The notes beneath the pieces were generated by a model, which had not been told where the DNA came from, made no database searches, and saw only the letters and a list, made by a program, of their open reading frames with translations. A program made the translations under genes and the position numbers. 47,535 bases of DNA from Candidatus Kuenenia stuttgartensis (lineage in GTDB: Bacteria; Planctomycetota; Planctomycetia; Pirellulales; UBA1268): assembly GCA_945891385.1 (NCBI GenBank), contig CAMDDJ010000022.1, positions 1 to 47,535 on the forward strand, written 5' to 3'. Of this stretch, positions 11,090 to 43,272 are shown in pieces. Each line of letters starts with the position of its first letter. Positions within the stretch are counted from its first letter, which is position 1.

Positions 11090-11712
11090 CCGCCCGCTCC
11101 GTCGGTCGGCTTGACCGGTTCGGCCAGCACCTCGCGGATCAGTTCGGCGAGTAGCTTGGCCCGGTCTGGATCGGTCAGCGAGTAGCCGCCCCTGAGTTTG
11201 CCGCCGCGATCGAACACGACCCCCTTTTCGGCGTGGACGCCGAGTTCGACGGGAAGCTTGAACCGCTGGGTTCCGACCCGGGTGATCTCCTTCAAGTCGC
11301 CGGTGAGGAATTTCCACCGAGCCTTGTCGGCGTCGAACCGTTCGGCATAGCGACGGAGCACCTCGGGCGTGTCGTTTGCGGGGTCGCAGGTCAGGCTGAC
11401 CACCATGAAGTCGGGGTCGTCGATCTCCCGCAGGATCTGCGCGATCGCCTGATTCTCCCGGAAGCACGGGCCGGGACAGTTGGCGAAAAAGATCGCACCG
11501 AGCCACACCTTGCCGGCTAGTTCGTCCGAGGAAAAGGTCGCACCATCCTGGTCGGTAAACCGGAACGGCGCTGCGGCATCGACCTGGGCAGTCTCCGGAT
11601 CAGGCTCCGGCTTTCCCACCACGACGGTGGGCTCCCGATCGGCACAGCCCACACCCACCAGCATCAGAACGCAGGCAAGCAAACCGACGCGGCAGGGGAA
11701 GACGATCGACAT
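11086..11712 (-). CDS. sco: Sco/SenC copper chaperone lipoprotein
   Basis: 208 residues. A lipoprotein signal (LACVLMLVGVGC) precedes a thioredoxin-like Sco domain with GAIFFANCPGPCFRE, where CxxxC binds copper, and a distal histidine in ELGVHAEKGVVFD. Members deliver copper to the CuA centre of oxidase subunit II, outside the inner membrane. DPANDTPEVLRRYAERF is the typical middle helix. It lies between ctaF and DUF420, overlapping the latter by 4 bp. The start at 11712 was chosen because it precedes the signal sequence directly. Confidence 0.9.
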   Translation of the reverse strand: MSIVFPCRVGLLACVLMLVGVGCADREPTVVVGKPEPDPETAQVDAAAPFRFTDQDGATFSSDELAGKVWLGAIFFANCPGPCFRENQAIAQILREIDDPDFMVVSLTCDPANDTPEVLRRYAERFDADKARWKFLTGDLKEITRVGTQRFKLPVELGVHAEKGVVFDRGGKLRGGYSLTDPDRAKLLAELIREVLAEPVKPTDGAGG

Positions 11713-11750
11713 GGCGACTTCGGACTTCGTTTTCGAGCGGGGAGATTTCG

Positions 11751-12185
11751 TCAGTGAGCGGACGACTTCGAACGCCCGCCCTCCCCTGCCCGTTCCAGGA
11801 GCAGAACGTCGGATGGGCGGGCCATGTGGAGGGCCCGCTCCTGCGACACCATTCGATTCCGCAACCCGATATCGGGGATCAGCATGATCACCAGAAACAG
11901 GGCCATCATCGCCGCAGGAATCGTAAGCACGTACTTCCAGTTGGCCTCCCACCAGACGTGCATGAAGAACAGCACGACGAGCATCGCTTTGGTGCAGGAG
12001 ACGGCAAGCATGAAGGCCCAGCCCACCTGGGGCTGATCCCGCCAAGGCCAGGCCGCCGAGTAGGTGAAGAACGACATCGTCGTCAACACGCAGAGGGCGA
12101 GAAACACGGCGAGATACTTGCCGAGTCCGCCATGAGCATGGTCGTGGCCGGCGGTGTCGTCGTGCTGGGCTGCATGGTCGGACAT
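11751..12185 (-). CDS. ctaF: Cytochrome c oxidase subunit IV (caa3/bo3 type)
   Basis: 144 residues. The histidine-rich N-terminus is followed by three helices in the CyoD/COX4 pattern: YLAVFLALCVLTTMSFF, then AFMLAVSCTKAMLVVLFFMH, then YVLTIPAAMMALFLVIMLIP. The KAMLVVLFFMH segment is the family signature. It is an accessory subunit helping assembly of subunits I-III in the inner membrane. It lies between subunit III and Sco. The long charged C-terminus (about 40 residues) is unusual. Confidence 0.85.
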   Translation of the reverse strand: MSDHAAQHDDTAGHDHAHGGLGKYLAVFLALCVLTTMSFFTYSAAWPWRDQPQVGWAFMLAVSCTKAMLVVLFFMHVWWEANWKYVLTIPAAMMALFLVIMLIPDIGLRNRMVSQERALHMARPSDVLLLERAGEGGRSKSSAH

Positions 12186-12224
12186 GATAGCATCTCGAAG
12201 GGGAACCGCCGAAGACGGCTTGAA

Positions 12225-13220
12225 TCAGAATAGATAGAGCAGGGGAAACAAAAAGATCCACACGAGATCGACGAAATGCCAGTACAGCCCGGCATTCTCG
12301 ATCATCCCGGCGTTCTTGGGCCCGAGCGTGTAACCGAGCAGCACGGCGAACACGATCAGCCCGACCACCACATGGACCGCATGGAATCCGGTCAGGAGGA
12401 AGTAGGTGCTGGCCCACATATTGCCGCCAGGAATCACGATCGGCAGTTGGAGCCAGGGAAAGACATCGTTGATGCCCTGGGCATGACCGCCATGGGCCTC
12501 GCTCCCGGGCCCGTCGGCCGGCAGCGGCATGATCTGGTCGGCGACGACGGCCATCTCGAAGGCCTGCTGGTTGGTGTCGGCAACCATCGTCCGTACCTGC
12601 TGGAGGGCGGCTCGGGCTGCCACCTCCTGCTCGGTCAGGTCGGCCGCAGGGGTGTCGTCGAGTTGCTTCAGCCGGTCAATGATGGCGGGCTCGCCCAGTC
12701 GGGCCCGGACCGCCGATCCATAGTACAGATCGGGCCGCTCGTAGATTCGGCCATGGGGGGCGGCGGGATAGATGCCGTGGGAGAACTTGGCCTGATACTC
12801 GTAGCCCTTCACGCCGAGGAACAACGCTCCCAGCAACAGCGTGGTCAGCATCCAGAACTTCGCCAGTCCGGTTTTGTTGGCCCGGGCCGCCTCCAGGGCG
12901 AGCACCACCGTGACGCTCGAGCAGATCAACACGAAGGTGTTGAAGGCACCGATTGGCTCTGAGAGGTGAACATGATGGGGCTTGGGCCAGACGGCGGCTC
13001 CGAACCGGAGCACGATGTAACTCCCGAGCAAGGCGGCGAAGAACATGATCTCCGTCGAGAGAAACAGCCACATGATCAGCTTGCCCCGCGACAACGGCAG
13101 GCCAGGCTGGTACTGGAGTTTGAGATGCCCGTGGTGACCGTCGTCATGGTGACCGTCGTCATGGTGACCGTGGTCGTGATGGCCGTGGTCGTGAGGAACG
13201 CTGATAGCGGGAGAACTCAT
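12225..13220 (-). CDS. ctaE: Cytochrome c oxidase subunit III with a large insert
   Basis: About 331 residues. [20 protein letters not shown] and [20 protein letters not shown] are standard subunit III helices, and [18 protein letters not shown] with [19 protein letters not shown] form the conserved C-terminal half. Between them, after helix 3, lie about 100 hydrophilic residues (from about [14 protein letters not shown] to [10 protein letters not shown]) that ordinary subunit III lacks. The N-terminus is a run of His/Asp/Gly repeats. A start at 13232 is possible, but GGAAGG just upstream of 13220 favours the shorter form. Upstream of ctaF in the cluster. Confidence 0.9.
13130..13196. repeat. 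Short tandem repeats encoding the His-rich tail of subunit III
   Basis: Units close to gtcatggtgacc repeat several times in a row, giving the HHDDGH/HHDHGH repeats of the subunit III N-terminus. Such repeats can vary in number between strains; that variability is inference. Confidence 0.7.
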
Positions 13221-15340: not shown

Positions 15341-17146
15341 TCAATGGGCGGAAGCCGCCGCGGCAGCGGCCGCCGCATTCGGCGGATCCGTCTGCATCAG
15401 GTGATCCTTCTCCACGCCCGGCACCGAATATTCATACGGGCCTCGGTAGACCACCGGTTGCACGTCGAAGTTCCCGTGGCCAGGGGGGCTCGGTGCCGTC
15501 CACTCCAGGCCGTTTGCATTCCAGGGATTCCGGCCCGCCACCGGTCCGTAAAACATGCTCCAGAAGAAGTTGACCGCAAAGATGATCTGACTCGCGACCA
15601 TGCCGATCGCGCAGTAGGTCATGAAGGCATTCATCGGCTGGAGATGGTGGAAGGTCTCGTAGTGATAGGCATCGGCAAGCCGACGGGGAAACCCGACGGC
15701 CCCGAGGATGTGCATGGTGAAGAACGTGCCGTTCAGAAAGACGAAGGTCAGGAAGAAATGCACCTTTCCCCAAAACTCGTTCATCGTGCGGCCGAACATC
15801 TTGGGAAACCAGAAATAAATCGCAGCCCAGACTCCCATCGCAGTGCCGGCAAAGAGCACGTAGTGGAAGTGCGCCACGATGAAATACGTGTCGTGGATGA
15901 AGATGTCGACGGGGGTGGCCGCCATGAAGATGCCCGACAGGCCGCCGATGATGAACATCGAGACGAATGACAGGGCAAAGAGCATGGCGGTCGTGAACTG
16001 AATCCGCCCGCCCCAGACCGTTCCAAGCCAATTGAAGGTCTTCACGGCGCTCGGGAGCGCGATCATCATCGTCGACACCATGAAGGTGATGCCGAGGGCC
16101 GGGTTCATCCCGGACATGAACATGTGGTGCCCCCAGACGATGAAGCCGAGGCCGGCGATACCGGCGATCGAATAGACCATCGGCCGGTAGCCGAACAATG
16201 GCTTGCGGGCAAAGCAAGTGAGGATGTCACTGACCATGCCCATCGCGGGCAAGATCATGATGTAGACCGCCGGGTGGCTGTAAAACCAAAAGAGGTGCTG
16301 CCACAGGAGCGGCTGCCCGCCGCCCGGCCCCGCCACGGCATTGTTGACGATATTGTTCTCCGGCGTGAAAAACCCGGTGGAGAACATCCGGTCCGACATC
16401 TGCATGAAGCCCGCGGCCGTCAACACAGGCAAGGCAAACGCCTGGAGCACCGCCGTGATGAACATGGCCCAGATCGTCATCGGCAACCGGAACATGGTCA
16501 TGCCCGGGGCCCGCATCAGGATGATGGTCGTCATGTAATTGACGCTTCCGAGCATCGACGACACACCGACGAACGTCAGTCCGATCAGCCAGAGGGTCTG
16601 TCCCCAGCCACTGCCCGGCGAAGATGCAACGTTCGTCGAGAGTGGCGGATAACTGGTCCAACCACTCGATGCTGCCCCGCCCTCCACGAAAAAACTGGCT
16701 CCGAACGCGATGAAGGCCGGCCACATGAACCAGTACGACAACATATTGAGCGTCGGGAAGGCCATGTCGTCGGCCCCGATCATCAACGGAATGAGGAAGT
16801 TGCCGAAGGCACCGGCGAGGATCGGGATGATCACGAGGAAGATCATCACCGTCGCGTGCATCGTGAAGAGCATCGTGTAAAACTCGGGCGACATCTGCCC
16901 GCCCTGTTGGGCGAACAACTTGCCGACCACCGGCACGTCGGACCACGGCCACGCAACTTGCCACCGCACGGCAAGGGCCAAAAGACCACCGATCAGAAAC
17001 CAGAGCAGAGTCGAAAACAGGAACTGCAGACCGATGACCTTGTGGTCCTTGGAGAAGACGTAGGTCGAGAGAAACGTTGATACCGAGTGCTGGCTGGCAG
17101 GCGGATGGCCGTGCTCTGTCGAGACTGGTGCTGTTACGGTGCTCAT
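15341..17146 (-). CDS. ctaD: Cytochrome c oxidase subunit I, A2 type
   Basis: 601 residues, catalytic subunit of the aa3-type haem-copper oxidase. Haem ligands are His97 (FTMHAT), His426 and His428 (VAHFHY); CuB ligands are His291, His340 and His341, with Tyr295 for the His-Tyr cross-link. The helix VI motif reads FWFYSHPAVYI, where A1 enzymes have glutamate in GHPEVY; tyrosine-serine at this place is the published signature of the A2 subfamily. All expected ligands are intact. Second gene after ctaC in the ctaC-D-A-B-E-F-sco series. Confidence 0.97.
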   Translation of the reverse strand: MSTVTAPVSTEHGHPPASQHSVSTFLSTYVFSKDHKVIGLQFLFSTLLWFLIGGLLALAVRWQVAWPWSDVPVVGKLFAQQGGQMSPEFYTMLFTMHATVMIFLVIIPILAGAFGNFLIPLMIGADDMAFPTLNMLSYWFMWPAFIAFGASFFVEGGAASSGWTSYPPLSTNVASSPGSGWGQTLWLIGLTFVGVSSMLGSVNYMTTIILMRAPGMTMFRLPMTIWAMFITAVLQAFALPVLTAAGFMQMSDRMFSTGFFTPENNIVNNAVAGPGGGQPLLWQHLFWFYSHPAVYIMILPAMGMVSDILTCFARKPLFGYRPMVYSIAGIAGLGFIVWGHHMFMSGMNPALGITFMVSTMMIALPSAVKTFNWLGTVWGGRIQFTTAMLFALSFVSMFIIGGLSGIFMAATPVDIFIHDTYFIVAHFHYVLFAGTAMGVWAAIYFWFPKMFGRTMNEFWGKVHFFLTFVFLNGTFFTMHILGAVGFPRRLADAYHYETFHHLQPMNAFMTYCAIGMVASQIIFAVNFFWSMFYGPVAGRNPWNANGLEWTAPSPPGHGNFDVQPVVYRGPYEYSVPGVEKDHLMQTDPPNAAAAAAAASAH

Positions 17147-17212: not shown

Positions 17213-18010
17213 CTAGCGGACAGCCATCTCGCCAACCGCTTCGGCGACGGGCTGCGTGGCTTCCTGCTCGGAATACTTGCGGTCCAGCCAGGCGTCGAAC
17301 TCGGGTCGAGACACGAAGGTGATCCGGCCCTTCATCTTGTAATGGCCCCAGCCGCAGAGTTCGGCGCAGACGATGTCAAAGCCGCCGGTCTCGGTGGCAC
17401 GGAACCAGACGGGAATCTTCATGCCCGGGACGGCGTCCTGCTTGATGCGAAGGTTCGGCAGAAAGAAACTGTGGAGGACGTCCATACTCTTGAGTTGCAC
17501 GAGGATCTCCTCGTCGACCGGCAAATGGAGGTCGTTCACAAGATGAAGGTCGTCCGCGGTGCCGAGCACACCGTCTCGCCCGGGGTAGCGAAGCCGCCAT
17601 TCGAACTGCCGGGCGACCACTTCGACGGTCGGTGGCATATCCGGCCGCCGCATCTTCACGTTGGCCCAGGCATTCATCTGATAGATCGCGAGAAACAGGA
17701 GCGTCGCGGCCGGGATGATGGTCCAGACCACCTCGAGTGTGTGGCTTCCCTGGATATAGGTTGCCTTACGCTCTCCCCGGGCGGCGTCGTACTTCCAGAT
17801 GAACCAGAAAAGAAGCAGTTCGGTCGCGATAAAGACGACCCCGGTGAGGGCGAGGATGAAATAGAAGAGCGAATCGATCTGGTAGCCGTGTGCCGAGATG
17901 TCCTTCGGCAGCCAGACGTTGATCGCGGGGGCGACCGCAAACACCGCCACTCCGAGCACCGGAACGGCCAAAAAAACCAGGCCCCAGAAGATCCCACCGA
18001 GTCGGTTCAT
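17213..18010 (-). CDS. ctaC: Cytochrome c oxidase subunit II with CuA site
   Basis: 265 residues: two membrane helices (about 8-30 and 50-72, with a further hydrophobic stretch at 95-110) and a periplasmic cupredoxin domain. CuA ligands are visible as His180 (DVLHSF), Cys215, Glu217, Cys219, His223 and Met226 (CAELCGWGHYKM). VARQFEW is the aromatic electron-entry strand. No fused haem c domain, so electrons must come from a separate carrier, plausibly the dihaem cytochrome encoded upstream, with which it overlaps by 4 bp. Confidence 0.96.
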   Translation of the reverse strand: MNRLGGIFWGLVFLAVPVLGVAVFAVAPAINVWLPKDISAHGYQIDSLFYFILALTGVVFIATELLLFWFIWKYDAARGERKATYIQGSHTLEVVWTIIPAATLLFLAIYQMNAWANVKMRRPDMPPTVEVVARQFEWRLRYPGRDGVLGTADDLHLVNDLHLPVDEEILVQLKSMDVLHSFFLPNLRIKQDAVPGMKIPVWFRATETGGFDIVCAELCGWGHYKMKGRITFVSRPEFDAWLDRKYSEQEATQPVAEAVGEMAVR

Positions 18011-19287
18011 TGGTCGCTCGTCTCCTGCGCTGCAAGGGCCCCGGCCACGTTCGACTGGACGGCCATGCTGCGATCGACACCCAGTTCGCCATCGAAGTCA
18101 TACGGCAAGGACCGCACGTAATTGACGATGTGCCAGATTTCCTCGGGCGATACGGTGCCCGCGGCGGCCGGCATGGGCGCACCGTTGATGCCCGCGTGGA
18201 TCCTGTAATACAGATCGAGCGGCCGGCGCCCGCCGCGGTAGATTCCCTTCCTCAGATTCCGGGGCGGGATGGTGCGCGGCTGGAGCGCGTCGCCATCAAG
18301 TACGTCGTGGAAGTCGGCGATCCACCGATGCTCGGCCGGTTCGAGCTCGTTGCCGGCGAGGCTTGCGAGCTTGGCCTCGATCTTCACTATGTTTTTGCTC
18401 CAGTCGTCGTAGTCGTTGGCCTGGCCGTCGCCAAGCCCCGTCACGCCATGGCACTTCACACAGTTGGCCCGGTCGCCGTAGAACAGTTCCTTCCCCTTCG
18501 CAACCGACGCAGCGAGGTCGAGATCTGCCGGTGGCTCCGGCACGTCGATCACGGCGTCGGCGGCCGAGGCCCACTTGTCGGCAATCGGCTGGAGGATCTC
18601 ATCGACGAGGAACTCGCGAGTTTCGGGCAACTTGCCCTCGTCCTCGTCGTCGAGTTCAAAGTAGTACCGCATCAATGCCAATTCGGTTTCGCCGCGGATC
18701 GATAGATATTTCACATACTCGACGAGGGCGTCGACCTGGGTCGGGCTGAGCAGAGCGAACGAAGGCATCGATGTTCCGGCGATTCCGTTGTGAAGCACAT
18801 GAACCAGATCGCCATGCGTTGGCTTGTCGGCCCGCTCCGTGCTTTTGAACTTGAAGACGCCGGGACGGTAGTCACGCGGGTAGGGGTTCAGGAACGCCGC
18901 GGTAGGCCCGAGACCGTCGCCGGTGATGCCGTGGCAGTGCACGCAATGTTCCCGATAGAGCCCGTTCTTGCGGCCCACGATGTCACTCCGGACAGGACCG
19001 GCAGCCAATTGGAGCTTGCTGCCGTCGAGTCCGGCCTCGGGGAGGCAGACTGGCTCGTCGGGCGTACCGAACATGGCAGCCAGGATGGTGGCTACCTGCC
19101 GCTGCTGTTCGGTTGTCAGGGCCTGCTCGGCCGCGATCGAATCCTTCTCGGCCGTGGGGGAGATCGCCTCGACCATGTTGAGCCGAAAGGCAGCCGGCGG
19201 CGTCGGACTACACCCGGTGGCAATCAAGCCGGCCAGGATCGCAGCAATCAGACAGGGACGGCGTGAAGATTTACTGGATGTGCTCAT
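18007..19287 (-). CDS. Dihaem cytochrome c lipoprotein
   Basis: 426 residues. A lipoprotein signal (LAGLIATGC, Cys26) anchors it outside the membrane. Two cytochrome c domains have haem motifs CVHCH (115-119) and CVKCH (276-280); likely axial methionines are Met174 (GTSMPSF) and Met372 (GAPMPAA). The haems are separated by an acidic linker. Downstream ctaC overlaps by ATGA, so it is probably the electron donor, or a tethered subunit, of the oxidase. The start at 19287 directly precedes the signal sequence; the 44 residues before it are shadow. Confidence 0.9.
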   Translation of the reverse strand: MSTSSKSSRRPCLIAAILAGLIATGCSPTPPAAFRLNMVEAISPTAEKDSIAAEQALTTEQQRQVATILAAMFGTPDEPVCLPEAGLDGSKLQLAAGPVRSDIVGRKNGLYREHCVHCHGITGDGLGPTAAFLNPYPRDYRPGVFKFKSTERADKPTHGDLVHVLHNGIAGTSMPSFALLSPTQVDALVEYVKYLSIRGETELALMRYYFELDDEDEGKLPETREFLVDEILQPIADKWASAADAVIDVPEPPADLDLAASVAKGKELFYGDRANCVKCHGVTGLGDGQANDYDDWSKNIVKIEAKLASLAGNELEPAEHRWIADFHDVLDGDALQPRTIPPRNLRKGIYRGGRRPLDLYYRIHAGINGAPMPAAAGTVSPEEIWHIVNYVRSLPYDFDGELGVDRSMAVQSNVAGALAAQETSDQ

Positions 19288-19322
19288 GGAAAACACGACT
19301 CGTGAATTCAAAGAACGTTGCC

Positions 19323-20240
19323 TCAGATGCCGAGCGCCGACGCGGGAACTTCGAGTGTGCCGAGATCCTTGACCTCGTCCTGCTCGAGCGTGATCACAAA
19401 CCGGCCCTTGCTGGTCCACTTCAGCGAAGGCTGGTCGAGACCAAGACCACCGTTGGGTCCGGTGGACCGGGCATGCCAGACCTGGAACTCGATCGGCTCA
19501 CCGGCGGGCAGATCCTCCAGTTGGAACGAGCCATCCGCCGAGGAGACCGCTACATAGCCGTCCTTGCGGAAGACGGCATACGCCTTCATCCAGGGATGGA
19601 TGTTGCAGGTGACCGAGACGGGCATTCCCGTTTCGCGATCCGGCGTGTAGACCGCCCCGCCCCCGGACGGGATTAACTGGTTGAAACTTGTACCGGAGAT
19701 ATTCGTGTTGTGGCCAATCGGATCGCTGTTCCGCACGTCGACCGGCTGGCCGACTCTGGCCACAAACACCGGAGAGAGAAACTCGCAGTTCTTCTGGTCG
19801 AAGACCAACTGCTCGGCTGGCACCGGATCCTTGACACGGCTGGCCTTCCGGACGAACACGACGACGTCAGCAAGCCCTTTGGTGGAGGCGTCTATTCGGA
19901 GCGATTGGTCGTAGAGTTTCATGCCGTCTTTCGAACAAACAGCCGTATCCTTGTCGACGATCAGAGCTGCCGGCTGGGTAGGATCCCCGCCGAACACAAA
20001 ACGTCCCTTGAGCGACGCCCACCCGGAACCGGAGGAGGCAACTACCGCGGTTTCGGCGGCCGGCTCAACCCCGGCACCGAGCAACTCACGCAGGGCTGCG
20101 ACCGCCTCCTGGCTCACCGCCGGGCCCGCCACTCGCACGGGGCCGCAGCCCGCCGCAAGCAAGCCTGCTACGCATACGACCGATCGCAGCAACGACCAAG
20201 TTCCGGACCACTCCATCGCGACGTCTACTCCCACGTTCAA
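19323..20240 (-). CDS. Cupredoxin-like lipoprotein (paralogue of upstream gene)
   Basis: About 305 residues. A lipoprotein signal (CVAGLLAAGC) is followed by LKGRFVFGGDP, a plastocyanin-like fold with NSDPIGHNTNI and VTCNIHPWMKAYAVF, giving His, Cys, His and Met as a probable type-1 copper site, then DGSFQLEDLPAGEPIEFQVW. Annotated relatives are often called methylamine-utilisation or carboxypeptidase-regulatory-like proteins. The first 65 residues of the mature part are unlike the paralogue. The start at 20240 gives ATGA overlap with the previous gene; 20216 is an alternative. Possible mobile electron carrier between bc complex and oxidase (inference). Confidence 0.8.
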   Translation of the reverse strand: MNVGVDVAMEWSGTWSLLRSVVCVAGLLAAGCGPVRVAGPAVSQEAVAALRELLGAGVEPAAETAVVASSGSGWASLKGRFVFGGDPTQPAALIVDKDTAVCSKDGMKLYDQSLRIDASTKGLADVVVFVRKASRVKDPVPAEQLVFDQKNCEFLSPVFVARVGQPVDVRNSDPIGHNTNISGTSFNQLIPSGGGAVYTPDRETGMPVSVTCNIHPWMKAYAVFRKDGYVAVSSADGSFQLEDLPAGEPIEFQVWHARSTGPNGGLGLDQPSLKWTSKGRFVITLEQDEVKDLGTLEVPASALGI

Positions 20241-21013
20241 TCGAACAGTTTGGCGTCGAGAACGATCTCACCGAGATCGTTGGCGCCGGCTGCGATCTTC
20301 ATCTTCTTCCTGCCCTTCGACACCTTTTCAGCCTTGCCGCCGACCGTCATCTCGCCGATGTAACCGGCCTTCTCATGCCAGAATTGCAATTCGACCTCCC
20401 CGGCAGGCAGGTCGGCGATCTCGAAACTGCCGTCAGCGGCGGATACGGTCGCATAGGGATTGTTCCGAACCACGATCCAACCCTTCATCCAAGGGTGGAT
20501 GTTGCAGGTCACTTGCGCCGGCACTGCCTCGTCCGACGAGAACTTCGTCGTGACTTGGCCGCTGGCCGGGATCAGGTTGTTTGACGGGGCGTTCTTGACA
20601 GTCGCGATATTGCTGTTGTGCCCCACCGGATCGGAATTCTTGATCGTGAGTTCCTGACCAACCTGCACAAAAAGCACATGCGGTTCGAACCGGCAATTGA
20701 GATTGTCGAGCACCGGCTTGGCTGCCTTGGCAGCTGCCTCGAGTTCCGGCTTCACCTTCACCTTTTTGTCTCGCACGAAGACCACGACGTTGGCAACACC
20801 CCTGTTGTCACCCACAACGACTTCTTCTGAGACGAGATTGTGCTTGCCACAAACCTCCACGTCCTTGTCGATCGTGAGAGCCGGGGAGGCCGGCGCGTTA
20901 CCCCCGAAAACAAACCGACCCTTGAGCGTGCCCCATTCGTCCGCCATCGCGGACGAAACAATCGACGCCGCAGCCAACGTGAGGGAAAAAACAAACGTGA
21001 CGCGATGCAGCAT
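20237..21013 (-). CDS. Secreted cupredoxin-like copper protein
   Basis: 258 residues with a signal peptide (about 1-23, ending SSAMADEW). The main body matches the next gene: LKGRFVFGGNAP, NSDPVGHNSNI, VTCNIHPWMKGWIVV and DGSFEIADLPAGEVELQFWH, giving His/Cys/His/Met copper ligands. Cysteines in VEVCGKHN and NLNCRF may form a disulphide. The start at 21013 is supported by GGAG seven bases upstream and the signal peptide; the longer frame to 21088 adds residues unlike a leader. It lies between the octahaem cytochrome and its lipoprotein paralogue. Confidence 0.82.
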   Translation of the reverse strand: MLHRVTFVFSLTLAAASIVSSAMADEWGTLKGRFVFGGNAPASPALTIDKDVEVCGKHNLVSEEVVVGDNRGVANVVVFVRDKKVKVKPELEAAAKAAKPVLDNLNCRFEPHVLFVQVGQELTIKNSDPVGHNSNIATVKNAPSNNLIPASGQVTTKFSSDEAVPAQVTCNIHPWMKGWIVVRNNPYATVSAADGSFEIADLPAGEVELQFWHEKAGYIGEMTVGGKAEKVSKGRKKMKIAAGANDLGEIVLDAKLFD

Positions 21014-21095
21014 GACAAAACTCCGGAACGCGGCGGAAAGGTTGAAACGGTCGAATCCACCGATGGTCGGCGGCAAGGACATCCTCATGACTTCA

Positions 21096-24000
21096 CTATT
21101 CTACTGCCGTGGCCCCGGCCGGGGAGCCGAGTGCCGCGGCGTCGGTCGGGGCCGGACCGTTGCCATCGGCCGGTTGAGCCGGCGGAGAACCTGCCGCCGC
21201 GGCATCAGCGGCCGGCTGGGGTGATGCCGGCGCTTGGAGGAAGGCCTCCAAGGAAAGGTTTCGCTTGGCGAACAGATCGAAGTGCATCAATAGGTCAGTC
21301 AGGGCATCCAGTTGCTGCTCGCTTGTGCCAGCGTAGAGGTCCTGGCTGACGGGAGCACCGTAGGGAATGTTCACAGGCATGCCTGTGTACGGCAGGAACC
21401 GCTTCGGGTTTGCGATCCAGTCGTGGACATAACCCGGCCGCAGCCGCTCGTGAACACGCTCCAACTGCGGCGCCAATGCCTTGGGGTTGCCAGGCGGGGC
21501 ATAGTCACCCACCAGGTGGCACTTTACGCAGTAATTGTTGTTGGTGACGATCTTGAGGGCACCCTCAAGATGACCAGGCTGCGCCGTTTCCTTGGCGGCA
21601 ACCGCCGTCTCGTCGAGACGAGGATCGGCCACGTAGGGATAGTCAGCGCCGTCGACGGCCGCGAAGTAGTCGACCATCTTGGCGGCCTGATCGGAATTCC
21701 AGGTGAACTTCGGCATCCGGAGCACCGCCGGCGGACGAATCGTGTGCGGATTGAGCAGGAATCGGTGCAACCAAGCCGACTGTACCTTTTGGCCTTCGCC
21801 CACGAGCGAAGGTGGTAGCCAACCCCAGGCGTCCTCAGGCTTGACGTTGGGATTGATCTCCTTCTCGTCGGCGATCACCACCGGGTAGAGCAGGCGAGCC
21901 AAGTCACCGCCCCGCCCCGCGTAATGGCTACCCGCATCGAACGCCTGTTCGGGAACGATCAGATTCGGGCCGCCAACCAAGCGTGGCTCACCGTCGACCA
22001 GCGCGTCTCGCCACAGCGTAAACGGCCGATGACGCACCGACTCTTCGTCGTCTTCTTCAATCGGCACGCCATCCTCGTCAACCCACTGGGGCCGGCCCGT
22101 CTCGGGATCGAGCACCTGACTGCCCACCAGCGAGGCATGCCGCAGCCCCGCCGCATCCGCAGCCAGCGAATCAGTGATCTGCTGGGGCGTGAAATGGGGG
22201 GCGAGGAACGGATAGTCCGGGGTCTCAGAAGACTCGCCCAAGGCCCCTGGCCTGAAGGCGATATCCCAACGATCCATCTCCAGGGCATGGCAGCCACCGC
22301 AGTTGTACTGCTCCGCCACCACGAGGCCGTTGAGCCTCGCCTGCTCCCTCGGCCCGGGCGTGTGCACAAACTGCGGCGGCGGCGGCTCGGCCACGAGGCC
22401 CAGCACAAAGGTCATGACGGCCTCCCGCTGCTCGTCATCAAAGGGAAACTGCGGCATTCGGTACCGCTCGTTGTAGGTCTTGTTTTCGACCTTCTTGTAG
22501 TCATAGCTCCGCGGGGCGCGCAACTTTTGCCAGAGAAATCCTTCGCGCTCATGGCCCAGCAGTTTTTCAACGAAATAGCCGGTGTTGGGATCGAGGTTCT
22601 CGAGGTCGACGTGCGGTTCGTCGCCCCGCATCACGTACGCAAGGTCGGACGGGAAATCCGGGTCTCCCGACTGAGTCCCGACCGCCTCGGAGCCGTGCGG
22701 CGAGTGACCATCCTGGTGATCGGCATGGCCGCCATGACCATGCGCGTCGGCAAGTTGGTGCATCACGAAGTGTGACACCTGTTCAAAGGCAATCCGCGAC
22801 GACTCCTTGCGGCCCCAGTCCGCGAGCGCCGCCCCGGCCGGCTTCGCGTCCTCGAAGCCAGGAATGTCGTGACAGGAGTAACAGGCGAGCTTTCCGATCG
22901 TCTTCTTGCCCACGTAGTTCAGCAACGTCGCGTCACGGTCAGGTCCATCGAGGCCCACGAGCATCGACTCGTCTCCCTTGATGCCCGCCTGCTCGGGTGA
23001 GAGCCCCGAGGTCAGAACAGCCTTGGCCCGCACTGCCGGAAACCTTTCCTTCAAATACATGAGAGCCAGCTCATCGAGCGCCTCACGCTCCGTCGCCGAG
23101 AGTGACTCTGAAGGAATGTCGGTGGGCCGCCAGTCCTCGGTCGACTGCAGCAGGTACGCCGTCGCATCGGCTGCCGGGTCGGCTATCCGACCGTCAGGGA
23201 GTTGCTCCGGCTCGAGCAACACGTTCGGCATGTTCGTTTTGGAGTGATACCGGGCAGGCTCCCGCAGCCAGCTGTAGAGCCAAGCCTGCCCCTGCGGTTG
23301 GGGTGCCAGCTTCGCTCCGATCCGGGACAGATTTGGGCCATGCGAACTCGTCGCCTCGGGGAAGTCGGCGTGCTGGTGGCAGGCCAGACAGCCCCGGAGC
23401 TGGAACACCTTTTTGCCGCGGGCGACGTCGGCCTCGGCGGTGATGCCAGCAAAGGGCTCCACAAACTCAAACGGTTGGCTCGTTGCGGTCAGGTAGTGGA
23501 TCATCGAGCGAATTTCGAGCGGCTCGTACCGCTGCGATTCTTCCAAGCCCTTCCCTTCAAGATGCTCCCATAGCCCAAAGAACCGCGGCATCTTGGTCGA
23601 CGGACGGAAGTCCTGCGGGTTTTGCAACCATGAGTAGAGCCAGTCGAACCCAACCTTGGCGGAGAGGTGTCGGAGGCTCGGCCCCACCTTGGGGAAGGTG
23701 CCGGGCGTCTCCGGGTCCTTCAGCATCGCGGCAAGCTCGTGGGTCCGCGGCAAAAGCTGCCCCTCGGAACCGGCCTCGGCGTCGGCCAGGATCGCCTCTC
23801 GCAGGCGGGCTCGCGAGTCGCGTCCATCGGGACCGCTCCGGACGTCCTTGGCCCAGCGGACCGCATTTTCTCCCACTCCGGCAAGCCCCGGATCGGCGGC
23901 AACGGCCGCAGCCACTTCGTGATAATTCGGAGCGAGCCGCAAATCGGGTCCGATTCGCTTGTCTGGCCCGGCCCATCCGTTGATTTCGTGGCAGCCGTAG

Positions 24001-25724
24001 CAGCCGTACTGCCGGACCAGTTGGTAGCCCTCGACAAGCTTGGGGGCGGGCGGCTCGGGGAATTTTTGGCTTGGCTCGAGGTCGACGACCTGGTGATGGC
24101 ACTTGAGGCAGCTCGACTCCTCAAACCTCTCGGGCAGCATCGGCAGAATCCAGTGATGGTTGTTGAACCAACCGTATTCGGCGTGCCATTCGTGCCCGAC
24201 CTTCGGCGAGTTCGGAGCGTGTGACGCCCACTTGAAACTGGTCGAACTCCCCTGCCCTTGGTGACAGATCGTGCATCCGAAGTCCTTCATCGGATGGGGG
24301 CTGGAATCACTGACAAACAGATCGAGCCGCGGATGGGTCGCGTAGGGCTGGGGCACGCCACGACGAATTTTCAGAGTCAAGGGCTCGCCCCAGGCGGGAG
24401 TCTCGAGGAGGGCGGTCGCAGCCATCTGCTTCCCGGAGATTCTCAGACCAGCCACTTCTTCGATGACGTCGCCCGGCATCAGCCCAGCCATCGCCGCGGC
24501 GGCGGCCGGCTCCGGCTCTTCGTCGTATGCCACCGGCGTGGCCGGAAGGACCACGTTCACCGTCGCGTCGTCGGCTGCGAAGACGCCCCGTTCAGCCAGC
24601 CGGAGACCGTACACCGCCTGCAAAGCATCGTCGGCCGCTCCCTGCGCCCGCGCCTCGTCGATCAACGTTCGTGCGGCGTCGGCAGCCGGCGTCTGCAACG
24701 CGACCTCGATGGTTTCGGCGTCTGGGTACGCCGGATCCTGCGGACTGCCCGGACGAGATTTATCCATCCCGCGGTGGCAGGTGATACACCGGTCGAATCG
24801 AGCGACGTCGCGAAAATTATTGTTGAGCGTCAACTGGGGAAGCCAGAGCTGCTCCACCCGGAGCGGTCCGTTGAACGCGTCGAGCACCGGCAATTCGAGC
24901 GCCGTCTTGCCCACATTTGACCGCCGCTGCTCCAACGTTTTTTGGAGCAGGCCGAGCTTGATGCGATGGTCCGCCACCGCCTTCGCGGCGACGTCCTCAG
25001 CGGCAAGCAGTTGCGTCACCAACGATTCGAGCGACTTTCGATAGGTGTTGGACTGCTGGAACGCGAGCGTCGCGGCGGAAACCTCCTGCCGCTTCGAGTC
25101 GGCAACCGCAAGAAGACTGGCCTGGCGGTCGGCCGGGGCGTCACTCGAGACCGCCAACTCATAATCGGCTCGGTTCTTATCGAGTTCGGCCTTCCTGAGC
25201 TTCAGGGCGCCGGCAAGGTTGTCCTCACGAAATCTCGCTCGCCGAACAATGTCTCGCATCCGCTCCATCAGATCGCCGCGGAGGGCGAACCGCTTCTCTG
25301 CGAACCGCTCGGCCTCGGCACCATCCGCATCCTGCTCGATCTGCTCCGACTGATCGCGAAGCTGTTTCAGCGCTTCGATATCCTGGGCGAGCAAACCGGC
25401 AGCCTCTCGGTCGTCGGCGTGATTCGATGCCAATCCCACGAACTCTTCAGCGAGCGTTGGATCGAGCGGGGCCCGGCGGGCCTCGGCCAACGCCTTGGCC
25501 AACTCCGCCCCCTCAGCGCGGTACCCTGCCAGATCTTGCTGGGCGATCCGAGACTCGGCGGCCCAGGTCTCCAACTCACGGAATCCGCGGGCGTATTTCT
25601 TCCACGGCCGGTCGTGGTCGGCGACCAGCATCATGCCCGTGGCAGCCAAGAGGCACAGGGCCGCCACGGCGAAGGCCACATGGAGAATTTTGAGGTTCCA
25701 CCAAGTCTGTTCGTTCGCAGGCAT
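21096..25724 (-). CDS. Giant octahaem cytochrome c with coiled coil and PDZ-like domain
   Basis: 1542 residues. An N-terminal membrane anchor (about 11-34) is followed by a charged coiled-coil region (about 45-270). Eight CxxCH motifs start at residues 313, 484, 539, 575, 779, 948, 1142 and 1399. A PDZ-like stretch (AGLMPGDVIEEVAGLRISGK, about 413-455) lies between haems 1 and 2. Haems 4-8 are each followed by a W-L-x3-L-x2-P...MP segment (for example WLYSWLQNPQDF...KMP, ending at 712; then 832, 1090, 1337, 1449), so five are probably ordinary His/Met cytochrome domains. Haems 1-3 lie in a histidine-rich part and may be bis-His. A His-rich loop lies at 995-1010. It directly follows the cytochrome b genes and probably serves as the c1/f subunit. 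Confidence 0.92.
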   Translation of the reverse strand: MPANEQTWWNLKILHVAFAVAALCLLAATGMMLVADHDRPWKKYARGFRELETWAAESRIAQQDLAGYRAEGAELAKALAEARRAPLDPTLAEEFVGLASNHADDREAAGLLAQDIEALKQLRDQSEQIEQDADGAEAERFAEKRFALRGDLMERMRDIVRRARFREDNLAGALKLRKAELDKNRADYELAVSSDAPADRQASLLAVADSKRQEVSAATLAFQQSNTYRKSLESLVTQLLAAEDVAAKAVADHRIKLGLLQKTLEQRRSNVGKTALELPVLDAFNGPLRVEQLWLPQLTLNNNFRDVARFDRCITCHRGMDKSRPGSPQDPAYPDAETIEVALQTPAADAARTLIDEARAQGAADDALQAVYGLRLAERGVFAADDATVNVVLPATPVAYDEEPEPAAAAAMAGLMPGDVIEEVAGLRISGKQMAATALLETPAWGEPLTLKIRRGVPQPYATHPRLDLFVSDSSPHPMKDFGCTICHQGQGSSTSFKWASHAPNSPKVGHEWHAEYGWFNNHHWILPMLPERFEESSCLKCHHQVVDLEPSQKFPEPPAPKLVEGYQLVRQYGCYGCHEINGWAGPDKRIGPDLRLAPNYHEVAAAVAADPGLAGVGENAVRWAKDVRSGPDGRDSRARLREAILADAEAGSEGQLLPRTHELAAMLKDPETPGTFPKVGPSLRHLSAKVGFDWLYSWLQNPQDFRPSTKMPRFFGLWEHLEGKGLEESQRYEPLEIRSMIHYLTATSQPFEFVEPFAGITAEADVARGKKVFQLRGCLACHQHADFPEATSSHGPNLSRIGAKLAPQPQGQAWLYSWLREPARYHSKTNMPNVLLEPEQLPDGRIADPAADATAYLLQSTEDWRPTDIPSESLSATEREALDELALMYLKERFPAVRAKAVLTSGLSPEQAGIKGDESMLVGLDGPDRDATLLNYVGKKTIGKLACYSCHDIPGFEDAKPAGAALADWGRKESSRIAFEQVSHFVMHQLADAHGHGGHADHQDGHSPHGSEAVGTQSGDPDFPSDLAYVMRGDEPHVDLENLDPNTGYFVEKLLGHEREGFLWQKLRAPRSYDYKKVENKTYNERYRMPQFPFDDEQREAVMTFVLGLVAEPPPPQFVHTPGPREQARLNGLVVAEQYNCGGCHALEMDRWDIAFRPGALGESSETPDYPFLAPHFTPQQITDSLAADAAGLRHASLVGSQVLDPETGRPQWVDEDGVPIEEDDEESVRHRPFTLWRDALVDGEPRLVGGPNLIVPEQAFDAGSHYAGRGGDLARLLYPVVIADEKEINPNVKPEDAWGWLPPSLVGEGQKVQSAWLHRFLLNPHTIRPPAVLRMPKFTWNSDQAAKMVDYFAAVDGADYPYVADPRLDETAVAAKETAQPGHLEGALKIVTNNNYCVKCHLVGDYAPPGNPKALAPQLERVHERLRPGYVHDWIANPKRFLPYTGMPVNIPYGAPVSQDLYAGTSEQQLDALTDLLMHFDLFAKRNLSLEAFLQAPASPQPAADAAAAGSPPAQPADGNGPAPTDAAALGSPAGATAVE

Positions 25725-25781: not shown

Positions 25782-27107
25782 TTAGAAGTTCAGTGAAATT
25801 TCCGGAATGCTCACGATGTACCGGAGGTTCATGGTCCACCGGAGGGCCATCTTGAGGGGAAGAGAAAGCATCAAGAGCATCAAATTTGCCATGATCATGT
25901 AGCGAATGAATCCCATCTTCGCGAACATTCCGCGAAAGACCGTGACTGCGAGCAGAGGCGGCAGGACCACCAGGTACAAGCCAAGAGCCACCAGCCCGGG
26001 GGCTTCCCGTAAGAAGATTGTTCCCAATTGGGAGTACCACGGAGCCCCGGAGACCGCTCGCGGCAACGGTTGATCGAGCCAGTTGACCCAAAACATCTGA
26101 TTGAGGTCGACGTTGTTGAGCACCTCGACTTTGTACGGCGTCCAATATTCGAACGGACCGTAAAAGTTCCAATTTGGGCCGCGAAGAAAGGTGCCCAAGA
26201 TGATCAGCGTGATCCAGAGCACCAGAAAGCCGAACTGGTAGGTGAGATACGCGAATTTCCGTTCGGCGATCGAGTAATACCCGTTTCCTGCCTTGTTGTA
26301 ATCGAGGTAGGGCATCGCCATCAGGCCGAACACAACGAGGCTCGGCAGCACCACGCCCGCATACCAGGGGTCGAAGTACACGAGCATTTCCTGAAGCCCG
26401 AGGAAGTACCACGGGGCCTTGGATGGATTCGGGGTCTTCACGCTCGACGCAGGCTCTTCGAGCGGCGCGGGCAGGCAGATGGCCCACACCAGCAGGAACG
26501 CCGAGACCGCCACCATGCAGATCAGTTCGGTGTAGACGAGATCAGGCCAGACGAGCACCTTTTCGTCGGCGAGTTTCTCCATCGGCGGCTCGCCCCGGGC
26601 GATCCGGTCGTCATTGACGACGGCCTGCTTCGTCGCCACCCAGGTGAAGAACGCGAGCAAGAACACCAGCCCCACGATCGGCACGTTGTCGGGCTTCATC
26701 ACGATCAGGGCGAAGTTTTGATCCGCCATCGCGAGGCCCAAGAGCACGAGCGCACCGTTGAGAATCGACCAGGCCACCATCGGGCGGACAAAAAACCGCC
26801 GAAAGACGAATAGAACCGTGAACAGCGCGACCGTACCGAGCGAATAGACCACCGGCCCTGACAAGGCGTTCACAAGCGACCGAACCGAGTCTGGCAGGGC
26901 CGGCACCCATGCCGGCGATGCCGACATCGCCAGGCTCGCAAGCACCATCATCGCCCCGGCGAACACGGTCCAGAACACGGCCCATCCCACACTGCCCTGC
27001 CGGCGCCAGAGCAGGAAAGCAAAGACGCCGTTCACCAGGGCGATGAGGGTGTAATACCCGCCCAGGAAGCCGGACGTGTCACGAAGAAAAAAGGGATCGG
27101 AATGCAT
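25782..27107 (-). CDS. Cytochrome b subunit IV-like protein with extra N-terminal helices
   Basis: 441 residues, about three times a b6f subunit IV. Five helices (about 18-35, 42-62, 86-102, 110-126, 141-158) precede the subunit-IV-like part. The Qo-site segment is PNPSKAPWYFLGLQEMLVYF (226-245), with PWY where b6f and bc1 have PEWY. Later helices lie at 250-268, 288-306, 371-390 and 400-418. The ATG at 27107 has GGGAG eight bases upstream; a GTG at 27131 overlapping the cytochrome b6 stop is the alternative. With the 257-residue partner it forms the quinol-oxidising cytochrome b. Confidence 0.85.
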   Translation of the reverse strand: MHSDPFFLRDTSGFLGGYYTLIALVNGVFAFLLWRRQGSVGWAVFWTVFAGAMMVLASLAMSASPAWVPALPDSVRSLVNALSGPVVYSLGTVALFTVLFVFRRFFVRPMVAWSILNGALVLLGLAMADQNFALIVMKPDNVPIVGLVFLLAFFTWVATKQAVVNDDRIARGEPPMEKLADEKVLVWPDLVYTELICMVAVSAFLLVWAICLPAPLEEPASSVKTPNPSKAPWYFLGLQEMLVYFDPWYAGVVLPSLVVFGLMAMPYLDYNKAGNGYYSIAERKFAYLTYQFGFLVLWITLIILGTFLRGPNWNFYGPFEYWTPYKVEVLNNVDLNQMFWVNWLDQPLPRAVSGAPWYSQLGTIFLREAPGLVALGLYLVVLPPLLAVTVFRGMFAKMGFIRYMIMANLMLLMLSLPLKMALRWTMNLRYIVSIPEISLNF

Positions 27108-27127
27108 GGGGGGAGCTCCCGCGGCCT

Positions 27128-27901
27128 TCACAACGGTCCGCTGATGCCGCCGTCCTTTCGCACCCGCCAGAAGTGGATAGCCAGCAGCAGGGCCACCGCC
27201 AGCGGGATGGCGATGCAGTGCAGCACGTAAAACCGGTTGAGCGTTTCCTCACCCACGAAACGGGCCCCGAGAAGGCCGAACCGGGCGTCGGAGGCGTCGG
27301 TGATCATGTCGATGCCACCGATCGTCAAGAGTTGCTGCCCCGGGCCCTCGTACCCCAGGAACGGCGTAGCCCGAGCCATGTTCGAACCGACCGTGATGGC
27401 CCAGATTGCGAGCTGATCCCACGGAAGGAGGTAGCCGGTGAACGACAGCAGCAGCGTGAGCAGCAGCAGAATCACGCCGATCACCCAATTGAACTCACGG
27501 GGCGGCTTGTAGCTCCCGGTCAGAAAGACCCGGTACATGTGCAGCCAGGTGGTGATCACCATGGCGTGCGCACCCCAGCGATGCAACTCTCTCAGGATGC
27601 CGAGACTCGTCACATCGCGGAGCGCGAGAATGTCGTTGTAGGCCCACTCCAGGGTCGGCCGGTAGTAGAACATCAGGAGCACGCCCGTAACCGTCTCCAC
27701 CATGAAGAGGAAAAACGTCACGCCGCCCATGCACCAGGTGAACGACAGAGCAATGCCTTGCTTCTTGATCGAGACCGGGTGGAGATGGAGAAAGAAATTC
27801 GTGAGCATGACCACGATCCGATTTCGCCGGTCAAGCGGCATCGGATGACGGAAAATGCTCTTCCAAATCTGGGAATTACGAATCGTCTCGCCAATCGCCA
27901 T
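27128..27901 (-). CDS. petB: b6-type cytochrome b with probable haem c-i cysteine
   Basis: 257 residues, four main helices. Haem ligands are His107/His121 (LHRWGAHAM...WLHMYRV; 14 apart) and His228/His243 ([11 protein letters not shown]...AIHFWRV; 15 apart, the b6 spacing). Cys57 in [11 protein letters not shown] aligns with the b6 cysteine (YCLGGIT) that covalently holds haem c-i near the Qi site. The Qo-side segment [16 protein letters not shown] is present. Second gene after Rieske, 21 bp apart. Carries electrons across the inner membrane from quinol. Confidence 0.92.
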
Positions 27902-27922: not shown

Positions 27923-28966
27923 TCAGACCGTGACAAAACTATCGGGATCGGCCCACTGGCCGAGTTCTTCATGAAACGTTCGGCTCTTGTCGACCTCGAG
28001 TTGCCCGTCGTCGGCAATTCGAATCGCGTATCGCTCGAGCGGCCTGGGGGCCGGTCCCTCGAAATTGACTCCATCTTTGTAGAAGCCGCTGCCGTGGCAT
28101 GGGCACTTGAACTTCTGCTCTGCCTCGAGCCAACTCGGCGTGCAGCCAAGATGGGTGCACACGGTCTTCAGTGCATAAATCTGCTGCAGGCCCTGCACGT
28201 CGCCATTGACGACCCAGACGCCGTACTGGGCGACGAACTTTGTTTCAACCTTGCCTGACGGAAACCCGTCCTTCGCCCCGACCTTGAACTTGCTCGGGGG
28301 CTCGGCCAGCACGTTGGGAAAGAAAAAACGGGCGAGCCCGAGCGAAAACAAGCCGCCGGTCACGGACAGGGCGGTAAAGCCGATCGCCATGAACGATCCA
28401 GTGGCAATTTCCAGGAAACTCCGCCGATCTTCGCCCTCGGCCTTGGAAGACACCTTCGTCACGGGCCTGGTAGGCTTCGGCGGAACAGCCCGCGCCACCG
28501 TCTTTTCGGCGGGTGGCTTTGGCTTGGCGGCTGCGGGCCGAACGGGAGCCTCCGCCTTGCTGACTGGGCCCGGCTTCGCCGCGGCTCGAGCGGCGGCGAG
28601 AATGCTGGCCGTGTCACGCTGCACGCCAGCCCGGCCGGCAGCCGTCGCCGCCGGCGGCTTGGGAGCGGATGGCTTGGCGGCCGCGGGTTTTGCCGTGGGC
28701 TTTTCGGCCTCGGCAACGGCCTTGGGCGGAGACGAAGGCTCGTTTTTGGCCCGCGCCATCGCAAGAATGTCCGCCACGCTCGGCCGCCCCCCTGCCGCAG
28801 TGGCAGGGGCCTTCGATGCCGCGGGCACCGGCTTGTGCTCCTCGCTAGCACCCGAGGTATTGGCAACAACCTCGGGTACGGGCTCCGGCGAAGGCGACGC
28901 CTTCCCGTCTTTGGCTCGTGCAGCTGCCAAAATCTCGGCAACCGACAACTTCTTCTTGTCTGCCAT
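27923..28966 (-). CDS. petA: Rieske iron-sulphur protein with repeated N-terminal extension
   Basis: 347 residues. The C-terminal part is a Rieske domain with CTHLGC (Cys270, His272, Cys275) and CPCHGSGF (Cys288, Cys290, His291), preceded by a membrane anchor (about 191-215) after EDRRSF. The first 180 residues are a cytoplasmic Ala/Pro/Lys-rich extension holding three copies of a 13-14 residue motif: SVAEILAAARAK (8-19), SVADILAMARAK (63-74) and DTASILAAARAA (118-129). Typical Rieske proteins have a short tail here. The start at 28966 has GAGG upstream; the longer frame crosses the leader palindromes. First gene of the respiratory operon. Confidence 0.92.
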   Translation of the reverse strand: MADKKKLSVAEILAAARAKDGKASPSPEPVPEVVANTSGASEEHKPVPAASKAPATAAGGRPSVADILAMARAKNEPSSPPKAVAEAEKPTAKPAAAKPSAPKPPAATAAGRAGVQRDTASILAAARAAAKPGPVSKAEAPVRPAAAKPKPPAEKTVARAVPPKPTRPVTKVSSKAEGEDRRSFLEIATGSFMAIGFTALSVTGGLFSLGLARFFFPNVLAEPPSKFKVGAKDGFPSGKVETKFVAQYGVWVVNGDVQGLQQIYALKTVCTHLGCTPSWLEAEQKFKCPCHGSGFYKDGVNFEGPAPRPLERYAIRIADDGQLEVDKSRTFHEELGQWADPDSFVTV

Positions 28967-29027
28967 CGTGTGCCTCACCGGACAGATCAGGATGTCCGAC
29001 CAAGCTGCCGGAACCTCACGGGCTCCG

Positions 29028-29049
29028 ACAGAATTGTGCGGAATTCTGT
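29028..29049. promoter_or_regulatory. Perfect inverted repeat in the petA leader, site 2
   Basis: acagaatt at 29028-29035 and its exact complement aattctgt at 29042-29049 are separated by six bases. It lies 62 bp upstream of the petA ATG and 43 bp (centre to centre) from the next palindrome. Could be a second operator or an RNA hairpin in the 5' leader. Confidence 0.55.
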
Positions 29050-29070
29050 GTTTCGACCGGGATTCCGCAG

Positions 29071-29092
29071 GTTCGTGATTTTTTTCACGAAC
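29071..29092. promoter_or_regulatory. CRP/FNR-like palindromic operator, site 1
   Basis: gttcgtga (29071-29078), six thymines, then tcacgaac (29085-29092). The GTGA-N6-TCAC core has the geometry of CRP/FNR-superfamily sites. It begins just downstream of the -10 box at 29101-29106, where bound protein would overlap the start of transcription and probably repress. Regulator identity is inference. Confidence 0.6.
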
Positions 29093-29100
29093 TCCTTCTA

Positions 29101-29128
29101 ACTGTATCGATACCAGCCTCACTGTCAA
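29101..29128 (-). promoter_or_regulatory. Sigma-70 type promoter for the respiratory operon
   Basis: On the minus strand TTGACA (29123-29128, perfect -35) is followed after 16 bases by TACAGT (29101-29106, four of six -10 matches). Predicted start of transcription is near 29093, giving a leader of about 127 bases before petA. Confidence 0.55.
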
Positions 29129-29155
29129 TGTCAGGCGGCGGAGGCGCACCAGGGT

Positions 29156-43186: not shown

Positions 43187-43272
43187 GGCCGAGTGGCGAA
43201 ACTGGCAGACGCACGGGACTTAAAATCCCGTATCCCGTAAGGGGTGTGCGGGTTCGATCCCCGCCTCGGCCA
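43187..43272 (+). tRNA. tRNA-Leu (anticodon UAA)
   Basis: 86 nt class II tRNA. The acceptor stem GGCCGAG (43187-43193) pairs with CUCGGCC (43265-43271), with discriminator A at 43272. The anticodon stem CGGGA/UCCCG encloses loop CUUAAAA, giving UAA. A long variable arm (CCCGUAAGGGG) and T arm GCGGG-UUCGAUC-CCCGC follow. CCA is not encoded. It lies alone between tatC/DUF420 and the chemoreceptor, where tRNA genes often mark integration sites, though no integrase is here. Confidence 0.95.

Follow-up and report, generated by a model that had tools for sequence, protein, structure and literature searches.

A putative octahaem cytochrome c subunit of a Rieske/cytochrome b complex, encoded beside a CuA oxidase in a planctomycete

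The stretch of planctomycete DNA analysed here (the window; 47,535 nucleotides, contig CAMDDJ010000022.1 of assembly GCA_945891385.1) carries a gene for a membrane-anchored cytochrome c with eight haem-binding motifs, which we call octC. Its open reading frame (ORF) lies on the minus strand. An earlier sequence-only reading, silent on the strand, had given the ends of the ORF and its length of 1542 residues exactly, and the eight CxxCH motifs it claimed are indeed present, at residues 313, 484, 539, 575, 779, 948, 1142 and 1399. By comparison, 1000 shuffles of the protein contained a mean of 0.006 such motifs and a maximum of one. Sixteen of the 17 cysteines in octC fall within the motifs. The N-terminal anchor that had been proposed matches the one hydrophobic N-terminal segment found by hydropathy, at residues ~8-37. 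From this anchor the protein continues with a helical arm, haem 1, a PDZ domain and haems 2-8:

21096..25724, minus strand: octC, octahaem cytochrome c, putative c-type subunit; ORF of 1542 residues, ATG start, membrane-anchored
25614..25703, minus strand: sole transmembrane segment, residues ~8-37 (hydropathy)
24855..25589, minus strand: helical arm, residues 46-290, low in Pro and Gly (sequence composition; coiled coil not shown)
24774..24788, minus strand: haem 1, CITCH, residues 313-317 (motif; invariant in 89/89 aligned rows)
24357..24623, minus strand: PDZ domain, residues ~368-456, between haems 1 and 2 (Pfam match 403-455; earlier part by eye)
24333..24335, minus strand: His464, predicted distal ligand of a bis-His haem; invariant
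24294..24296, minus strand: His477, predicted distal ligand of a bis-His haem; invariant
24261..24275, minus strand: haem 2, CTICH, residues 484-488 (motif; alignment)
24219..24221, minus strand: His502, predicted distal ligand of a bis-His haem; invariant
24096..24110, minus strand: haem 3, CLKCH, residues 539-543 (motif; alignment)
23988..24002, minus strand: haem 4, CYGCH, residues 575-579; predicted His/Met with Met712 (23589-23591)
23376..23390, minus strand: haem 5, CLACH, residues 779-783; predicted His/Met with Met832 (23229-23231)
22869..22883, minus strand: haem 6, CYSCH, residues 948-952; predicted His/Met with Met1090 (22455-22457)
22287..22301, minus strand: haem 7, CGGCH, residues 1142-1146; predicted His/Met with Met1337 (21714-21716)
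21516..21530, minus strand: haem 8, CVKCH, residues 1399-1403, in a SoxX-like domain; predicted His/Met with Met1449 (21378-21380)

To define the haem ligands, we aligned octC proteins from related loci, which were collected in three sets of 72, 40 and 10. The alignment holds 89 rows including the window, representing 88 distinct genes, and only complete ORFs with eight CxxCH motifs were admitted. This filter removed two of the 51 complete ORFs in the first set (L089 and L101, genes split in two) and none of the 39 in the second. In all 89 rows, the invariant histidines and methionines are the eight CxxCH histidines together with H464, H477, H502, M712, M832, M1090, M1337 and M1449, and no others. 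Because these 16 ligands serve eight haems with none left over, they correspond to three bis-His and five His/Met haems. The simplest reading of the alignment is that haems 1-3 are bis-His and haems 4-8 His/Met, with the three distal histidines not assigned to individual haems. All ten loci of the third set, picked without the eight-haem filter, carry the eight motifs (10/10, alongside 49/51 and 39/39 complete ORFs in the first two sets). Two of them repeat genes already aligned, and the eight new genes keep 127 of 128 ligands.

This pattern refines the earlier proposal of five His/Met cytochrome domains built on five W-L..P..MP-like repeats. The repeats are real, the methionine of each is invariant and ligand conservation supports the five domains; the remaining three haems, which had been overlooked, appear to be bis-His. 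Profile comparison, in which the E-values are uncalibrated, finds the blocks of haems 4-8 mutually alike and most pairs strongly so, with haems 6 and 8 matching over 22 columns only. It does not convincingly join the bis-His block to these five. Searched against the PDB, the bis-His block gives weak matches only, the best at 8.6e-05 across 23 positions.

In transcription order, octC follows genes for a Rieske protein, a cytochrome b6-type subunit and a subunit-IV-type protein, and precedes two cupredoxin-like proteins, a dihaem cytochrome c, oxidase subunits II and I, and haem-A synthesis genes. It thus occupies the position, straight after the cytochrome b genes, in which it had been placed before; 57 nt separate it from the gene upstream and 7 nt from the gene downstream. 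The labels of oxidase subunit II, the second cupredoxin and the haem-A genes were read from the sequence by eye.

27923..29149, minus strand: Rieske protein; closest solved structure Kustd1480 (PDB 9rk3)
27128..27901, minus strand: cytochrome b6-type subunit; haem-b His pairs 107/121 and 228/243 (pairing by eye), Cys57, His39
25782..27131, minus strand: subunit-IV-type cytochrome b C-terminal half; KAPWY Qo motif at 26406-26420, Glu202
20237..21088, minus strand: cupredoxin-like protein A, amicyanin-like (weak scores, E 0.019 to amicyanin)
19323..20240, minus strand: cupredoxin-like protein B; His and CxxHPWM motif by eye, no Pfam cupredoxin match
18007..19419, minus strand: dihaem cytochrome c, two class-I domains (Pfam)
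17213..18010, minus strand: cytochrome c oxidase subunit II, CuA motif CAELCGWGH (read by eye)
15341..17146, minus strand: cytochrome c oxidase subunit I (PF00115 match)

The best PDB matches of the cytochrome b proteins are cytochrome b6 (2.7e-42) and b6f subunit IV (0.00038), pointing to a b6-type cytochrome with a separate subunit IV. In the alignments, Cys57 coincides with the b6 cysteine of the haem cN site and Glu202 with Phe40 of subunit IV; Cys57 is invariant in 91/91 rows and Glu202 in 98/98. The Qo motif reads KAPWY in 98/98 rows, anammox-like relatives included, with proline aligned to the glutamate of PEWY. A conserved QE lies a few residues after it. His39 of the b6-type subunit is invariant in 91/91 rows and corresponds to His62, the proposed ligand of an interface haem b; haem binding by His62 is a published model prediction (PMC12954380). 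Candidate type-1 copper ligands in cupredoxin A are His157, Cys195, His198 and Met201.

The Rieske protein ties this operon to a complex described from the anammox bacterium Kuenenia stuttgartiensis. Its PDB matches include 9rk3 at 131 bits (4.6e-37) and 9rk4 at 73 bits (1.9e-19), which are Kustd1480 and Kuste4569, respectively (PMC12954380). It shares a Ser/Phe pair with Kustd1480 (S 1.00 and F 0.98 of 92 family rows), for which a potential of +335 mV has been measured (PMC12954380). Among the anammox-like loci in our collection, L126 has Ser114, Phe116, His62, Arg266, Lys267 and Arg550 exactly at the published numbering; L128, L129 and L130 fit it only partly, depending on the chosen start. 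Since its partner residues match the published complex, the 956-residue eight-haem ORF of L126 should be Kustd1485 or a near twin. The window octC is 28-29% identical to the proteins of L126 and L130 and has all 16 ligands in common with them. By this indirect step, through L126, sequence comparison indicates that octC is homologous to Kustd1485, which the Kuenenia paper describes as large, with long helices reaching half-way round the complex and haems grouped in twos and threes (PMC12954380).

The likeness extends to the whole Kustd1480-1485 complex (R/b-2), which has a split b6f-type cytochrome b, a haem cN with a Glu ligand, the Rieske Ser/Phe pair and a large multihaem c subunit with a transmembrane helix and long helices (PMC12954380). 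The two versions nevertheless differ. The anammox-like octC has about 950 residues, lacks the PDZ insert and is accompanied by an NAD(P) oxidoreductase gene, recognised by Pfam in L126 and L130 and by gene size and start only in L128, L129 and L124. In contrast, the window protein has 1542 residues and a PDZ domain, no oxidoreductase gene lies in its operon, and cupredoxins and a CuA oxidase follow. Because the NAD(P) oxidoreductase is absent, the window operon encodes a variant and not the anammox complex itself. Nor is the arrangement unprecedented, as had been supposed: an octahaem cytochrome c replacing cytochrome f has been published for Kuenenia (PMC12954380) and for Nitrospina and Methylomirabilis (PMC3578206). 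The Nitrospina paper notes an octahaem bc-like operon in three lineages, and the operon it describes for Nitrospina gracilis and Methylomirabilis oxyfera, compared here by description, likewise combines Rieske, split b6/subunit IV and an 'atypical octaheme cytochrome c' (PMC3578206). octC is therefore a variant of a published kind of octahaem bc subunit.

We then asked how constant this association is across genomes. Of the 72 loci in the first set, which came from one contig scan, 71 belong to records titled as planctomycetes and one to a record titled 'bacterium' alone; the patterns scanned for pick up only close relatives and imply no absence outside Planctomycetota. Rieske, both cytochrome b parts and octC occur together at 57/72, 32/40 and 7/10 loci of the three sets, and at each of the 15 misses in the first set octC starts within 1.7 kb of a contig end. 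Outside the first set, no Rieske was detected at L119, and L125 and L133 lie at contig ends. Subunit I of the oxidase (cox1) was found in the retrieved flank at 41/72, 15/40 and 4/10 loci, many flanks being too short. Among 393 genomes, a profile of the bis-His (trihaem) block finds octC in 165 at E 1e-10 and a KAPWY DNA pattern occurs in 170. Both are present in 162, octC only in three (G072, G100, G119), KAPWY only in eight and neither in 220; the pattern read backwards occurs in none of the rows listed. At E 0.001, a looser profile reaches 236/392 genomes of the phylum, a count that will include some generic cytochrome c matches.

Given the conserved operon and the genomic co-occurrence, octC is very likely the c-type subunit of the Rieske/cytochrome b complex. 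We put a probability of roughly 0.78 on the fuller proposal, in which the operon would encode a b6f-like, menaquinol-oxidising complex of the Kustd1480-1485 kind with octC as the c subunit feeding a CuA oxidase. From gene content, ligand conservation, homology and co-occurrence we infer how such a complex might form and pass electrons. octC would replace cytochrome f or c1, and perhaps part of the soluble carrier too. Quinol would be oxidised at cytochrome b, with one electron moving to the Rieske cluster and on into the octC haem chain, which would lead through three bis-His haems in the first half and then through five consecutive His/Met class-I-like cytochrome domains. From this chain, electrons would reach the cupredoxins and dihaem cytochrome c encoded alongside and finally the CuA oxidase; that octC feeds the cupredoxins and oxidase of its own operon is plausible from their gene order. 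The helical arm may wrap or hold the Rieske/cytochrome b core, as modelled for Kustd1485.

Several observations weigh against this fuller proposal. At L080 the complex is present, and no oxidase gene lies in the ~10 kb downstream. Despite retrieved flanks, octC has no detected Rieske or cytochrome b neighbour at L123, L127 (the same as L155), L131, L157 and L158, and it may work apart from them in some genomes. At L134 and L135, Rieske and octC occur with no cytochrome b detected between them. The one ligand missing among the eight new genes of the third set is Met1449, in the paralogue L156. Finally, bis-His haems are often of low potential, which would fit a Rieske donor poorly unless they are tuned upward. 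Such tuning is on record in alternative complex III, where bis-His haems span -45 to +230 mV (PMC5928083).

octC could instead be a periplasmic electron hub and not a dedicated counterpart of cytochrome f or c1, accepting electrons from several periplasmic dehydrogenases or cytochromes as well as from the Rieske protein and passing them to cupredoxins and oxidases. The haems outnumber what a short relay needs, the Kuenenia authors likewise find the reason for so many haems 'not entirely clear' (PMC12954380), and the free-standing genes of L123, L131 and L157 sit beside cupredoxin, dihaem and other multihaem genes. We consider such a role doubtful, as a KAPWY cytochrome b accompanies octC in 162 of 165 genomes and the two genes lie 1.36-2.55 kb apart in 31 genomes, a non-random group hand-picked for sharing one contig; those of G217, G020, G421 and G206 are widely separated or do not share a contig. 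A more distant prospect is reverse operation, with electrons driven uphill into the quinone pool or towards NAD(P)H formation, which has been proposed for the anammox complexes. In the anammox-like loci L126 and L128-L130, a gene for a pyridine-nucleotide oxidoreductase does separate cytochrome b from subunit IV, and the invariance of His39 would suit this direction. However, the window operon lacks an oxidoreductase gene, its Rieske, cytochrome b halves and octC are contiguous, and a CuA oxidase follows octC instead, making reverse use improbable here. There is, lastly, practically no chance that the eight-haem protein is a fusion artefact or a mis-assembly of separate cytochromes. The similarity of its five class-I-like domains would allow growth by duplication or fusion, but eight haems recur in 95 further distinct complete genes, which rules out the artefact that the sequence-only reading had named as its own possible undoing.

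We also compared the operon with better-known classes of complexes. The actinobacterial bcc-aa3 supercomplex likewise links complex III to a CuA-type oxidase through a multihaem subunit, QcrC, with no free small cytochrome c; QcrC is dihaem, and no cupredoxins take part in it as described (PMC8361435). In the window, complex and oxidase share an operon. Alternative complex III, with pentahaem ActA and monohaem ActE, also uses a wire of bis-His and His/Met haems for menaquinol electrons, but has no Rieske or cytochrome b (PMC5928083). A canonical bc1 or b6f complex was rejected, as eight haems contrast with the mono- or dihaem c1, f or cc subunits and KAPWY with a PEWY-type Qo motif. Octahaem enzymes of the HAO/ONR type are defined by a family match and have no His/Met relay domains. 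This assignment was rejected for octC, which matches no such family at the thresholds used and has five invariant methionines. SoxX (NCBIfam TIGR04485), a small sulfur-oxidation cytochrome with one haem, was also rejected: octC reaches 75.1 against a cut-off of 61, yet this total adds up stretches of a 1542-residue, eight-haem protein. Automatic pipelines may mislabel octahaem proteins as SoxX, since the whole-protein score passes the equivalog cut-off.

The two accessory parts of octC had been read as about 225 residues of coiled coil and a PDZ-like stretch. The first holds as a long segment poor in proline and glycine, exactly 227 residues in 40 of 89 rows and 244 in the window. A heptad period does not reach significance there, either in the window protein (553/1000 shuffles match it) or in the 227-residue group (174/1000). 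A period near 3.5 residues is significant in two distant groups, of five rows (6/1000) and four rows (10/1000). The arm is short or missing in L115, L119, L124 and L158.

The PDZ domain is recognisable at the level of the family, whereas the window copy taken by itself gives a low score (PDZ_6: E 0.031 with the full-length sequence and 0.0095 with residues 1-620, neither reaching the curated cut-off). In alignment A2, which includes the window, 45 of 48 members match PDZ_6 at E <=0.1, with a best value of 3.5e-11; the octC family profile matches the DegP PDZ domain at 1.7e-9, and L115, L158 and L103 exceed the Pfam cut-off. The insert between haems 1 and 2 measures 108-147 residues in the window's group (128 in the window), 141 in L115 and 143 in L158. 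Most other relatives have 3-34 residues in this region, with 67 in L136, 77 in L159 and 152 in L160. Of the rows with a long linker, 43/54 contain a simple PDZ motif. Pfam finds no PDZ domain in the inserts of L159 and L160, so the long insertion of L160 was rejected as a second PDZ origin. L119, which belongs to the same order as the window's group, has no insert, either lost or absent from the start. On a quick tree, three changes are required to explain the distribution of long inserts, with L160 counted despite its lack of a PDZ domain.

The PDZ insertion probably binds a periplasmic partner or helps assembly; no row of the window's group lacks a long insert, and L115 and L158 keep one as well. 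An insertion that is neutral or degenerate and binds nothing seems to us the weaker explanation, even though the PDZ domain is the least conserved part of the 40-row group (mean pairwise identity 0.56; arm 0.65, haem part 0.75) and the window's own copy falls below the Pfam cut-off. As for the scaffold role proposed earlier for the PDZ domain, we compared loci L031-L105, taken as the PDZ clade, with the rest and found no C-terminal tail motif on operon partners that is specific to that clade, a result that would also suit an insertion of no binding function. In both groups, Rieske proteins often end in V or A and subunit IV in N followed by a hydrophobic residue, the PDZ clade being the more uniform.

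With these results, what had been an oddity described from a handful of nitrogen- and methane-cycling bacteria becomes a design widespread among planctomycetes. They also offer a ligand map of three bis-His and five His/Met haems for a protein whose many haems the Kuenenia authors left unexplained. A literature search within open-licence papers found no published description of the aerobic planctomycete version. The new elements are this aerobic variant, which lies beside an oxidase and lacks an NAD(P)H module; the insertion of a PDZ domain; the ligand rule; and the tight co-occurrence of octC with KAPWY. Because the ligand of the proposed interface haem b is kept where the NAD(P)H module is missing, the idea that this haem serves NAD(P)H formation comes into question. 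We tentatively raise a broader scheme, which we regard as unlikely: octC, the cupredoxins and the CuA oxidase would form one supercomplex without free cytochrome c, with the interface haem b as an older general component and the PDZ domain as a dock of which we know no other example in a respiratory complex. If true, this would amount to a hard-wired menaquinol-to-oxygen chain across much of a phylum. For further study, aerobic planctomycetes in culture should be more accessible than anammox enrichments.

The host genome is 93.9% complete, so that absences from it are not firm. It contains a match to a futalosine-type menaquinone enzyme and two COX1 genes; a search for an alternative complex III of the NrfD type gave no match. 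A second, more canonical Rieske protein, with a cytochrome b that is fused to a dihaem c and keeps PEWY intact, lies at 7450-10037 of L151 (C5), a locus of this same genome. Two different types of complex III are thus encoded in one genome. Nine records in our collection (L039, L040, L041, L055, L060, L066, L070, L075 and L088) are titled Candidatus Kuenenia stuttgartiensis. These titles look wrong: their octC proteins are 64-79% identical to that of the window over the best segment, unlike anammox-type octC. Elsewhere in the window, a SCO1/SenC-type protein is encoded downstream of the oxidase genes (11086-12417, minus strand), and the plus strand carries a small Rieske-domain ORF (37847-38083) and a tRNA-Leu (taa) gene (43187-43272).

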